Positions 3,886 through 23,861 of a DNA stretch of 30,466 nt are shown piece after piece. Within the stretch, counting starts at the first letter, position 1, and each line of letters begins with the position of its first letter. The translations under genes were made by a program, and so were the position numbers. The notes under the pieces were generated by a model. It had not been told where the DNA came from, did no database searches, and worked only from the letters and a program-made list of their open reading frames with translations. The stretch comes from a virus. The stretch is taken from IMG/VR virus record IMGVR_UViG_3300007276_000191, positions 1 through 30,466 of that record; one strand, 5' to 3'.

Positions 3886-5990
3886 TGGTTGATCTAACAA
3901 AGAAAAAAACGCTAGCTGAGTACGAGACTGGAGCATTGGCTGATGGCGATACTGTTGTCACATACCGCCCAGCTAACGCAGTTGGCGAAAAGGTATTCCG
4001 TGGCGACATTGTAGCTGGCACTGCCGCGTCCATTGCTGACGGAACCAGTACCGCGCTTAAAATGTACTCTGATAAAGCCCTAAAGGACGCAGTCAATACC
4101 GGCGCTATTCCTGTCGGGACAGCCGCAGAAATCGAAACTGGAACAGATACAATCGCGAAGCTTTACGCGCCAGATCAGCTTAATTCAGCTATTGATAGTC
4201 TGATTGAAACTGCCGTTCCGAACGGTACAGAGGCGCAGGTAATTGCCGGTACTGATACGGTTGAGCGCAAATATACGCCATCAGACTTGAACGACGCTAT
4301 TAACTCGTTGGTGGAAACCGCTGTTCCTGACGGCACTAAAGCCCAGATAATCGCAGGCACTGACACTACAGAGCGTAAGTTTACCCCCGCCGATATTAAC
4401 GGAGCTGTAAAAGATATTGCTATAGCTCAGTACGCTGGACGCACTGCCATGAAGGCAGCCACCGGCCTAACCGCTGGCGATGTCGCCTATCTCAGCGAAG
4501 GCGGTCGTAGCGGGCAGTTTATCTGGACGCTTGGCGACTTCTCGGCTGAGGTAGCTGCTGATACTCTGCAAGGCGTTTATGTTGCGAGTGATGCTGTGGC
4601 GGCGACTGTTGGGTGTTGGGTGCGGGAAGATTCTCAACCTACAACAGCAGATACTTTCGGCGGTACGTACTCCCCATTACTGTCAAGTATGCGCAGCGGC
4701 GACCCTTTCGAAATGGCGCGCGCTGTATCAAAAAGCCAATACGCAGATATTTTGGAGGGTGTTTCAACCGACGATTATGCTGCGCTAATCAATACAGTTC
4801 TTGAAGACGCAAAAGTCACAATATTAAGCCCCGGAAAATGGACATGTAGCTCAGGTTCAATAATTTTACCAAGCCGACGTGGGCTTTGTGGTCGCAATCC
4901 TTATAGGACTTTTTCCGCCTATTCTCTCGGCACCAATACTGTTTTGGATATAACGCACGCAGGCGATGGAGTAGTAAACGCTGTCGGAGCTTCGCTTTAC
5001 GCAATAGAAGGGTTGACGATTTTTAGTGAAACAGCGCAACGTGGTATAAATTTCGATAACGGGCAATGCAGCATAAAAAACTTAGGAGTTAACGGCTCGG
5101 AATATCAAGGAATTTTACTGGGGGAGAATACAATAGCATCTAGGATAGAGGATATTGTATCTGTGAACACTATGAGAGATCGTGCATCATTTGTATCTGA
5201 GGTCGGATCGGTTGAAATTGACGGAACAGATCACTTATTATCAAGAGTGCAATGCAATGGTCAAACTGGTTTTTCAACAGTTGCGGCGGCAAAAAAATCA
5301 ATAGCACTGTATGCAAAAGGCGTGAATCATTTTCTCACGGATGTAATTGGGGAATTCGGCGAAATTGGCATAAAACTAGCTTGCAATAAGTCAAGGGTAG
5401 TAAATGCTAGAGCTGATCGTTGTATGGGTGACGGAGTAGTAACCACTGGTCAAAACAACTCAGTTACAAATGCACATGCAGTTGAGTGTGGAACGGCGGC
5501 GGCTAACACATATTACGGCTTCCGCACTGCGGGATTAGGAAATACATTTACCGCTCCACAGGTTTACGCGCAAAATGCGAGCAACTTGCTTGTGTATGGG
5601 TTTTATGATTCAACCGCCAGCAATTCACAAATAAACACCTACGTCTCTCCGATAGTTAGTGCTAATTCAGCAGTTGTTGATTTCTACAATGAAGCTTTTT
5701 TGGGTTGCGCTTATAACTTTCCATCCAAAACATTGAGATATAATACAGGAACCACAATAAGCGTTTCCGGTATAACCGGAATTTACTTATATCATTCGAC
5801 TGCAACTACAATTACCGAGTTTACTGGCGGCGTAAACAATCAAGAGGTCAGGGTACACGCGAGTAACGCAAATATAACGATTGAAGATAATTCAGGAATT
5901 TCTCTGATTGGGGGGGTATCTCGTGCGCTCGTAGCTAATGAGATTATAACGCTAATTAACTATAATGACGTATGGTACGAGGCAAACTAA
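3885..5990 (+). CDS. Tailspike/tail fibre protein with N-terminal repeats and beta-helix body
   Basis: This 701-residue adsorption protein has a modular layout. Residues about 1-45 probably form the virion-attachment segment. About 46-180 hold four degenerate repeats of roughly 37 residues with the pattern VPxGTxAxIxAGTDTxxRKY followed by TPxDLNxAI. After a linker (about 180-260) comes a long Asn/Gly/Ser/Val-rich region typical of a right-handed parallel beta-helix, as in pectate-lyase-like spikes that bind and often cleave surface polysaccharide. No catalytic residues can be picked out by eye. The C-terminus (NEIITLINYNDVWYEAN) looks like a small trimerisation or end cap. It lies last in the virion operon, where P22-like phages encode the spike. 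Confidence 0.8.
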   Translation: MVDLTKKKTLAEYETGALADGDTVVTYRPANAVGEKVFRGDIVAGTAASIADGTSTALKMYSDKALKDAVNTGAIPVGTAAEIETGTDTIAKLYAPDQLNSAIDSLIETAVPNGTEAQVIAGTDTVERKYTPSDLNDAINSLVETAVPDGTKAQIIAGTDTTERKFTPADINGAVKDIAIAQYAGRTAMKAATGLTAGDVAYLSEGGRSGQFIWTLGDFSAEVAADTLQGVYVASDAVAATVGCWVREDSQPTTADTFGGTYSPLLSSMRSGDPFEMARAVSKSQYADILEGVSTDDYAALINTVLEDAKVTILSPGKWTCSSGSIILPSRRGLCGRNPYRTFSAYSLGTNTVLDITHAGDGVVNAVGASLYAIEGLTIFSETAQRGINFDNGQCSIKNLGVNGSEYQGILLGENTIASRIEDIVSVNTMRDRASFVSEVGSVEIDGTDHLLSRVQCNGQTGFSTVAAAKKSIALYAKGVNHFLTDVIGEFGEIGIKLACNKSRVVNARADRCMGDGVVTTGQNNSVTNAHAVECGTAAANTYYGFRTAGLGNTFTAPQVYAQNASNLLVYGFYDSTASNSQINTYVSPIVSANSAVVDFYNEAFLGCAYNFPSKTLRYNTGTTISVSGITGIYLYHSTATTITEFTGGVNNQEVRVHASNANITIEDNSGISLIGGVSRALVANEIITLINYNDVWYEAN

Positions 5991-22436: not shown

Positions 22437-22625
22437 ATGACTAAATCAGAGCTACAAGCAAGAGTCGATGCCGCTACTAAGAATATTGATCTTAGCGACT
22501 TGGAAGAGTATGGCGTTGAGCTAGTTAAGGATAATAGCGTTGAGGAATACTGGGCAAATTCAGCTTCTCAGTCTTACGTCAACTCGGTTGAGCGAGGTAG
22601 TGTTCGCACTGTAAAACTAGGTTAG
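22437..22625 (+). CDS. Hypothetical acidic protein (62 aa)
   Basis: A short acidic protein (MTKSELQARVDAATKNIDLS, DLEEYGVELVKDNSVEEYW) with no recognised family. It is the only ORF between copy 8 of the promoter and the tRNA. Its ribosome site is weak (AAGGAATAAAAAA before ATG). The C-terminus is Ser/Val-rich. Confidence 0.5.
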   Translation: MTKSELQARVDAATKNIDLSDLEEYGVELVKDNSVEEYWANSASQSYVNSVERGSVRTVKLG

Positions 22626-22637
22626 TAGCCGACCCGT

Positions 22638-22658
22638 CGCGGTGTAGTTTTAACCGCG
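22638..22658 (+). other. Hairpin just upstream of the tRNA
   Basis: Perfect 6-bp stem CGCGGT/ACCGCG with loop GTAGTTTTA, eight bases before the tRNA 5' end. It may guide processing or form part of the structured transcript. Confidence 0.4.
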
Positions 22659-22665
22659 GGGACAT

Positions 22666-22742
22666 GCGCCCGTAGCTCAACTGGACAGAGCATCGGTCTT
22701 CTACACCGAGGGTTGCAGGTTCGACTCCTGCCGGGTGCGCCA
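22666..22742 (+). tRNA. tRNA-Arg (anticodon UCU), CCA encoded
   Basis: A complete cloverleaf. The acceptor GCGCCCG/CGGGTGC has one G-T pair; the D stem is GCTC/GAGC; the anticodon stem TCGGT/ACCGA has loop CTTCTAC, giving anticodon TCT; the T arm is GCAGG-TTCGACT-CCTGC. Discriminator G is followed by encoded CCA. It reads AGA codons, rare in many hosts. It immediately precedes the large structured RNA region. Confidence 0.95.
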
Positions 22743-22908
22743 ATTTAGTGTATTAGAAATAAGAATTCGGGCTAACGCCCTCAAGAATTGCGCCAGCGCC
22801 CTGATGATTCGGGTATCGTTAACGGTGGAACTTTAACTAGCTGGCGCAAACTAATTTCATCTAGCAGTACAAACTAGATGAAAAAAACTGATGAAGGAGT
22901 GGTAGGAA

Positions 22909-22998
22909 ATGAGCGATTTAAAATCTACAAAGTCATGGCACAGTCGAGGTAATGTTGATTATTCTGTATTGCATGAAGCTGAAGCTTACGAGGCTTAA
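22909..22998 (+). CDS. Doubtful 29-residue ORF inside the structured RNA region
   Basis: An ATG with AGGA close upstream opens a frame reading MSDLKSTKSWHSRGNVDYSV and ending HEAEAYEA. It could encode a leader-like peptide. It is the only reasonable reading frame in the structured region and lies between strong hairpins, so it may simply be part of the RNA. Confidence 0.25.
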   Translation: MSDLKSTKSWHSRGNVDYSVLHEAEAYEA

Positions 22999-23130
22999 AG
23001 AACACCCTCTAACCGGAGGTGATTGACTAAGCGCAGTTAGTCGAGCGCATTGCCTAAGCCGCTGGGAAGCGTGATGGGGCACCACTAACGCGCAGTACGT
23101 GAGCCGAAGGTCTAACGCTACGCTGTGTTA

Positions 23131-23158
23131 TTGATAATAGAAAGCAAAGTTGTATAAT
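23131..23158 (+). promoter_or_regulatory. Sigma70-like promoter at the start of the pseudoknot domain
   Basis: TTGATA (23131-23136), a 16-base spacer and TATAAT (23153-23158). Transcription would begin near 23165, one base before the first stem of the pseudoknot at 23166. This could make the 3' domain an independent RNA of about 380 nt. Confidence 0.5.
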
Positions 23159-23608
23159 GGTCAGGCACTGTGGCGGTGCGAGTAGTTATAAGGCAGTCTT
23201 TGGCGTAGATTAAACCCGCCACGGTGTGTCGAAGATTGCACTTATAACTATTCAACCCTCCTCAATGCCTTGGGTATCGGGCAAACCAACGGGCACCAAG
23301 TCAAAAACGCTGTAGAACGATTGTTACCGCTCCAGACTGTAACTCCGAAAGGTGCCAGTCATACAGGTCGGATGCCTAATATCTGAACTGCGTACAAGAT
23401 GGGGAGTGGACAGACCTTAGCTAGTAGTGGTCTGGGCATAAACAGGTGGTAAGGTGGCTTTCCCTGATTTTTAGGGCTGAGATAGGTTCCGGCAAGAACA
23501 GAAACTGTATCCTGATAAGTGTAGCAATTGGAATCAGCTAGTTAAGAAGATTTAATAAATGGGACGGCGTTCTAAGTATAGGCCACCAACCCCATCTAAT
23601 GACCACTA

Positions 23609-23636
23609 TTGCCTAAATTTCACTCAATGGTACAAT
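23609..23636 (+). promoter_or_regulatory. Sigma70-like promoter of the membrane-gene cluster
   Basis: TTGCCT (23609-23614), a 16-base spacer and TACAAT (23631-23636), 21 bases before the chosen ATG at 23658. It contains no TCCTAC element, unlike most early promoters here. Confidence 0.45.
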
Positions 23637-23657
23637 CTAGTAAAACGAGGGTGGTTT

Positions 23658-23861
23658 ATGAAATCAATACTTGCAACTGCTATCAAAGCTGGACTGATGT
23701 ACATGATTCGCAATTATGCCGCATCTATCGTATTCGACATGATTGTAGAGCAGGCTGAAAAGCTCTCACGGCGCACTGACACTGAAATCGACGACAAAGC
23801 CGTGGCTATGCTGAAAAGCGATAAAAGCGACTTTATTGCAGCTATTAAGGGTAGAATCTGA
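23658..23861 (+). CDS. Small amphipathic/membrane-associated phage protein (67 aa)
   Basis: The sequence (SILATAIKAGLMYMIRNYAA, then FDMIVEQAEKLSRRTDTEID) resembles short phage proteins with a hydrophobic N-terminal helix and an RTDTEIDDKAV-like motif, often located near lysis genes. Function unknown. ATG 23658 has GAGGGTGG upstream. An in-frame ATG at 23559 would place a good promoter inside the gene and lacks a ribosome site. The stop overlaps the next start (TGATG). Confidence 0.6.
   Translation: MKSILATAIKAGLMYMIRNYAASIVFDMIVEQAEKLSRRTDTEIDDKAVAMLKSDKSDFIAAIKGRI

Follow-up and report, generated by a model that had tools for sequence, protein, structure and literature searches.

A covarying class of large structured RNAs in Vibrio and Pseudoalteromonas phages and a putative divergent member in an IMG/VR virus record

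Few classes of large, ornate phage RNA have been described, and the roles of two of these, GOLLD and ROOL, are unclear. Both form RNA-only cages, and the linker of GOLLD can hold tRNAs (PMC12286853). In the Vibrio phage ICP1, an ~800-nt non-coding RNA encoded between gp139 and gp140 is the most abundant ICP1 transcript (PMC7567579). A further class would give an independent comparison of the features that large phage RNAs have in common. The window analyzed here, which is the whole stretch of a 30,466-bp IMG/VR virus record, carries genes for a P22-type portal, a terminase, NinG, an Erf-like annealing protein, and a DnaB-like helicase. A preliminary description had placed a single large RNA, either GOLLD/ROOL-like or of a new class, at 22743-23545, beside a tRNA-Arg gene.

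Make-up of the stretch downstream of tRNA-Arg

The tRNA neighbor was confirmed, and the GNRA loops and pseudoknot that had been described have counterparts in GNRA-like loops and a pseudoknot candidate. The ~800 nt after the tRNA had also been called nearly free of ORFs, which holds for + strand ORFs of at least 50 aa, of which there are none, but not for a 29-codon ORF inside the stretch. The segments upstream of the proposed RNA were as follows:

22666..22742, + strand: tRNA-Arg (TCT), found by ARAGORN and Rfam; upstream neighbor of the RNA
22743..22905, + strand: two strong hairpins 3' of the tRNA, outside the proposed RNA and absent from a second phage, G001
22909..22998, + strand: 29-codon ORF with a Shine-Dalgarno-like AAGGAG, read from the sequence, outside the RNA
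22998..23130, + strand: structured intergenic element of ~130 nt, 86% identical in G001 with compensatory hairpin changes, distinct from the RNA
23131..23158, + strand: sigma-70 promoter TTGATA-16-TATAAT, 11 of 12 consensus positions, retained in G001

Strong folding had been claimed for the stretch as a whole, and this was not borne out. Over 22743-23560, the minimum free energy gave a z of −1.69 for the + strand, with 1 of 20 shuffles equally good, whereas the minus strand reached −2.56. These values lie only slightly below those of shuffles, and the plus strand scores worse than the minus strand, so a single giant RNA finds no support in folding energy alone. The sole part that stood out was the pair of hairpins at 22743-22905, whose fold was more stable than that of any of 200 shuffles (z −3.1).

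The borders of the single RNA were revised by comparison with the G001 contig (loci L087, L101, and L114), which was retrieved by scanning for a pattern near the inferred transcript start. G001 and the window match at 98.8% identity for 256 nt, beginning at 23129 immediately ahead of the −35 box and running to where the G001 contig stops. The shared part consists of the promoter, which is the top promoter match of the region, and the first ~220 nt (the 5' half) of the RNA proposed below. Long coding matches between the two phages were about 90% identical. Immediately upstream, G001 carries a 222-nt insert with a 66-codon ORF, followed by a homologue of window 22998-23131 at 86%, whereas 22743-22997 is not common to G001 and nothing further up to the tRNA is alike. 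Since G001 shares 23129 onward and the homologue of 22998-23131 but not 22743-22997, this comparison indicates that the stretch is a composite of three different things, namely 22743-22997, 22998-23130, and 23131 onward. The near-identity of the promoter and putative RNA 5' half, despite ~90% coding identity and a differing upstream context, counts for a free-standing RNA gene.

Several smaller features were observed around these segments. An intergenic element of ~48 nt (TAACGC...GCCGAAGGTCT...GTGTTATTG), with a likeness to integron attC or a small repeat, occurs repeatedly in several phages, where it separates small genes. Copies lie at 23086-23134 in the window and 1911-1954 in L049, a syntenic relative, with two more each in G001 (L114) and G003 (L115/L116); in G001, an extra gene stands directly after one copy. 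Farther downstream, an ATG at 23559 opens a 100-codon ORF, and the homologous gene begins at 23658; this ATG is probably a false start within the 3' domain of the RNA. A promoter-like TTGCCT-16-TACAAT stands just 5' of a 67-codon gene, at 23609-23636 in the window and ~6434-6461 in L049, and is kept in both phages.

A class of covarying RNAs in related phages

Relatives were sought by sequence, by gene neighborhood, and by covariance models. Used as a DNA query against phage and plasmid collections, the window stretch returned only tRNA or chance matches, and a DNA search of 369 gammaproteobacterial genomes gave chance matches only. A search with the downstream protein recovered L049, a single weak relative, and nothing else. 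Among 76 terminase relatives, two contigs, L033 and L066, had long ORF-poor stretches around tRNAs. These stretches contain a common 93-nt element at 82%, and the class RNAs in both contigs sit upstream of a homologous terminase. The L033 stretch folded far better than its shuffles (z −8.5), and that of L066 did not (z 0.05). L015 and L066 have a common 3' segment, and the pattern drawn from these two, GATAAACNG-N20..45-ACCAACANGGAT, matched 18 viral stretches, most of which extend the family; L126, L127, L129, L132, L133, and L135 appear unrelated. The corresponding 3' pattern of the window, CATAAACAGGTGGTAAGG, retrieved only unrelated DNA, and for this reason CATAAACAG of the window was not accepted as the class word GATAAACNG.

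Model R1, built from five sequences of the 3' domain, gave 13 matches. Model R2, built from the R1 matches, recovered 12 loci at E values of 1e-15 to 1e-32, a result that for most of them holds by construction. It also matched four independent cultured-phage loci at 1e-22 to 1e-27 (Vibrio phages 1.131.O and K30; Pseudoalteromonas phages BS5 and HS2), phages that had first been reached by BLAST from class members. An R2 scan of the 369 gammaproteobacterial genomes returned no match. The 5' model, R3, detected members beyond its seed, namely L143, L141, L142, L139, L134, and L066. On one phage contig, IMGVR_UViG_3300028045_000047, two different copies of the class were observed (L121 and L125).

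MAFFT and RNAalifold on the raw 3' alignment gave only three pairs because the sequence alignment breaks helices; consequently, the class helices were set by hand and then tested for covariation. In a model-fitted alignment of 16 sequences of the 3' domain, 94.3% of cells were paired, and 51 double-change cells were counted against 16.0 in shuffled alignments (0 of 500 as high). Sliding the helix partners abolished this signal. The unfitted seed alignment, A10, gave the same signal, including a pseudoknot helix in which 8 of 10 pairs had changed on both sides. The 3' domain is pseudoknotted. For the 5' domain, 23 double-change cells were found against 9.7 shuffled (0 of 500); in its alignment, A16, the kissing helix of L033 is shifted by one base. 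In the 5' domain, a first hairpin is followed by a long one, and the two are joined by pairing between the loop of the former and the apical loop of the latter; a second helix is interleaved. The kissing strands vary between members and pair within each, as in GUGUGAGAG/CUCUCACAC, UUUGGUAG/CUACCAAA, and GUUUAGUAG/CUACUAAAC, and as CUGUGGCGG/CCGCCACGG in the window. Comparative evidence of this kind indicates that a large structured RNA class with strong covariation exists in related phages, comprising 12 metagenomic contigs and cultured Vibrio and Pseudoalteromonas phages.

Both domains were detected at E < 1e-4 in eight loci, where they span 415-798 nt. In three members (L033, L134, and L066), a tRNA lies between the 5' and 3' domains, and several relatives have a terminator-like U-run after the P3 helix. 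In Vibrio phage BT-1011 (L142 2989-3118), the 5' domain was observed by itself, and no 3' domain was detected; ORFs, a homing endonuclease, and terminase genes follow it. A long helix enclosing tRNA T-arm-like pieces, similar to the middle module of L128, L130, and L134, was seen at L037 2215-2360 and L074 840-990, where the class ends were not detected.

Five class members compared with Rfam gave no credible family match, and most class stretches in cultured phages with annotated records carry no annotated feature. Searches of Rfam 15 and of the open-access literature found no description of the class. The family appears to be new, although its kind, the large ornate phage RNA, is already known. 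Its unannotated presence in the cultured Vibrio and Pseudoalteromonas phages 1.131.O, NF, 1.054.O, 1.275.O, BS5, and HS2 provides small genetic systems for direct tests of expression, deletion, and particle formation.

The proposed RNA of the window and its alternatives

The proposed non-coding RNA most likely spans ~446 nt, from ~23165 to ~23610; we infer its transcription and exact ends from promoter spacing, the near-identity with G001, and the class-like 5' and 3' ends. Comparison with relatives placed the 3' end near 23610, past that of the preliminary description. Its predicted parts were as follows:

23165..23610, + strand: proposed non-coding RNA, ~446 nt
23165..23179, + strand: P1 hairpin, GCAC-loop-GUGC, read from the sequence
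23168..23176, + strand: kissing strand CUGUGGCGG, 9 bp with 23216-23224
23216..23224, + strand: kissing strand CCGCCACGG, partner of 23168-23176
23180..23253, + strand: P3 long hairpin, UAGUUAUAAG...CUUAUAACUA, in the MFE and centroid structures
23397..23404, + strand: H1 5' strand AGAUGGGG, partner 23590-23597
23427..23433, + strand: H2 5' strand GUGGUCU, partner 23580-23586
23580..23586, + strand: H2 3' strand AGGCCAC, partner 23427-23433
23590..23597, + strand: H1 3' strand CCCCAUCU, partner 23397-23404
23594..23610, + strand: conserved 3' tail AUCUAAUGACCACUAUU, which L128 and L049 share without change

Each of these elements was compared with shuffled or background sequence. A kissing pair of 9 bp was reached by 4 of 5000 shuffles. 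Taken together, the promoter, 6 nt, the P1 hairpin, and the kissing pair make 23165 the highest-ranking promoter-like site of the window; none of 60 shuffled genomes held a site as good. A nested helix as long as H2 occurred in 194 of 20,000 shuffles and the closing helix H1 is weak by itself (p about 0.02), with both p values optimistic, as the two helices were chosen after the relatives had been seen. The 3' tail was the best class-tail match among ~61,000 positions, ranking second without the closest relative, L128, and eleventh without the four most similar sequences. The single-sequence fold energy of the RNA is unremarkable and not significantly below that of shuffles (z −1.48 for 23165-23560 and −1.12 for 23165-23614).

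The covariance models did not recognize the window. R1 and R2 gave 6.1 and 5.6 bits (E 8.7 and 1.3), both matches ending at 23610, and R3 found nothing at 23165 up to E 10. Read directly, the window RNA leaves no room for a P2 helix between P1 and P3 and has no U-run past 23253, and the core words GAUAAACnG and ACCAACAnGGAU do not occur in it. L033 also lacks ACCAACAnGGAU, yet its R2 match is 1.8e-15. Because all three models fail, membership is judged from architecture and end motifs. The window has the class arrangement of a promoter, ~6 nt, and a P1 hairpin in kissing contact, through its loop, with the apical loop of P3; the closing helix H1, H2 nested within it, and the 3' tail also come in class order. 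Its 446 nt fall inside the class range of 415-798 nt, and the tRNA-Arg upstream agrees with a frequent, not universal, trait of class loci, that of lying near or holding a tRNA. The syntenic relative L049 has the same first 12 nt at equal promoter spacing and the same 22-nt end. On these features, the window RNA is probably a class member, at best a divergent one. The idea of a new class beside tRNAs thus stood in part: a covarying, non-Rfam class does occur beside and around tRNAs, and the window shares its architecture, but by Rfam it is not GOLLD, ROOL, or HEARO, and the window fails the three class models.

In the reading that we consider fairly probable, 23165-23610 is a free-standing non-coding RNA gene of ~446 nt with its own sigma-70 promoter and a divergent member of this non-Rfam class of structured phage RNAs. 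At its 5' end, the loop of a first hairpin would pair with the apical loop of the long hairpin that follows, a long-range helix beside the conserved 3' tail would close the RNA, and the variable middle, tRNA-bearing in relatives, would act as a linker or cargo segment. During the lytic cycle, such an RNA would most likely build up as a folded particle, with or without protein, like GOLLD and ROOL; a structural RNA or ribonucleoprotein particle is the role favored by this analogy. For the class as a whole, we lean slightly toward a new class of large, modular, sometimes tRNA-carrying RNAs of Vibrio, Pseudoalteromonas, and related marine phages, which fold through kissing loops and may form GOLLD/ROOL-like particles, the window RNA being a divergent, shortened form.

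The main alternative, which we consider unlikely, is a structured 5' leader of a late operon, in which transcription from 23131 would run into the downstream genes and the leader would control termination or antitermination, much as at lambda pR'/6S or HK022 put. Consistent with this, the genes downstream of the RNA include the 67-codon gene, one for a membrane protein, a holin-like gene, and terminase genes, several relatives have the terminator-like U-run after P3, and in BT-1011 a solitary 5' domain precedes ORFs, a homing endonuclease, and terminase. However, the window has no U-run after P3, a separate promoter-like sequence (TTGCCT-16-TACAAT) stands just before the downstream gene, also in L049, and an elaborate covarying 3' domain and embedded tRNAs would be unneeded for such a role. 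Decidedly unlikely, in our judgment, is a small phage RNA or a regulatory stretch that has no relation to the class and resembles its ends partly by chance or through shared promoter DNA. The failure of R1, R2, and R3 and the unremarkable fold energy would fit such a stretch, but the 5' arrangement was absent from all 60 shuffled genomes, and the best tail match among ~61,000 positions lies at the class-expected length. Very improbable is an RNA component of a HEARO-like element mobilized by T5orf172/GIY-YIG or HNH genes. Points in its favor are the T5orf172 gene that separates the two shared RNA ends in L049, the homing endonuclease that follows the BT-1011 5' domain, and the differing upstream contexts of the RNA unit in the window and G001; against it, most class members have no internal endonuclease, Rfam HEARO is unmatched, and no intact empty site was shown.

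The L049 gene, of T5orf172/GIY-YIG type (PF10544), occupies 5280-5794, exactly between the class-like 5' and 3' ends, and genes that by eye are similar to it immediately precede the RNA in L066 and L131. This suggests that endonuclease genes home into or beside these RNA genes.

Comparison with known RNAs

At curated or gathering thresholds, an Rfam scan of the window found tRNA only, with nothing credible in 22600-23700 at E ≤ 10. The GOLLD, ROOL, and HEARO covariance models, with which the preliminary description was to be checked, gave no match even at E 10, and membership in these three families was rejected. HEARO/OMEGA-type RNAs are large RNAs tied to endonuclease genes, which recalls the T5orf172 gene at the L049 locus, but no Rfam match was found here, and the endonuclease association is seen in few relatives. 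The HK022 put and lambda pR' leader place structured RNA at the late transcription start; HK022 put is a short hairpin pair, whereas the class RNAs are ~450-800 nt with a conserved 3' domain.

The ICP1 RNA is, like the class, large, ORF-less, and from a Vibrio phage, and it sits at the start of the lysis cluster; a point of difference is that ICP1 has no tRNAs. Identity with it is unsupported, as R2 had no match in ICP1 and the only R3 match (E 0.38) lies elsewhere in that genome. GOLLD and the class are both phage- or prophage-encoded, often near tRNAs, and have in common tRNAs sometimes placed in the linker, kissing loops, and a 3' region that is conserved with a 5' region less so. Many GOLLD members exceed 800 nt, compared with ~450 nt for the window RNA, and the GOLLD covariance model does not match. 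ROOL, likewise unmatched by covariance model, is alike in its phage setting near tRNA islands, its pseudoknots, and its kissing loops. The class resembles GOLLD and ROOL in setting and architecture rather than in sequence.
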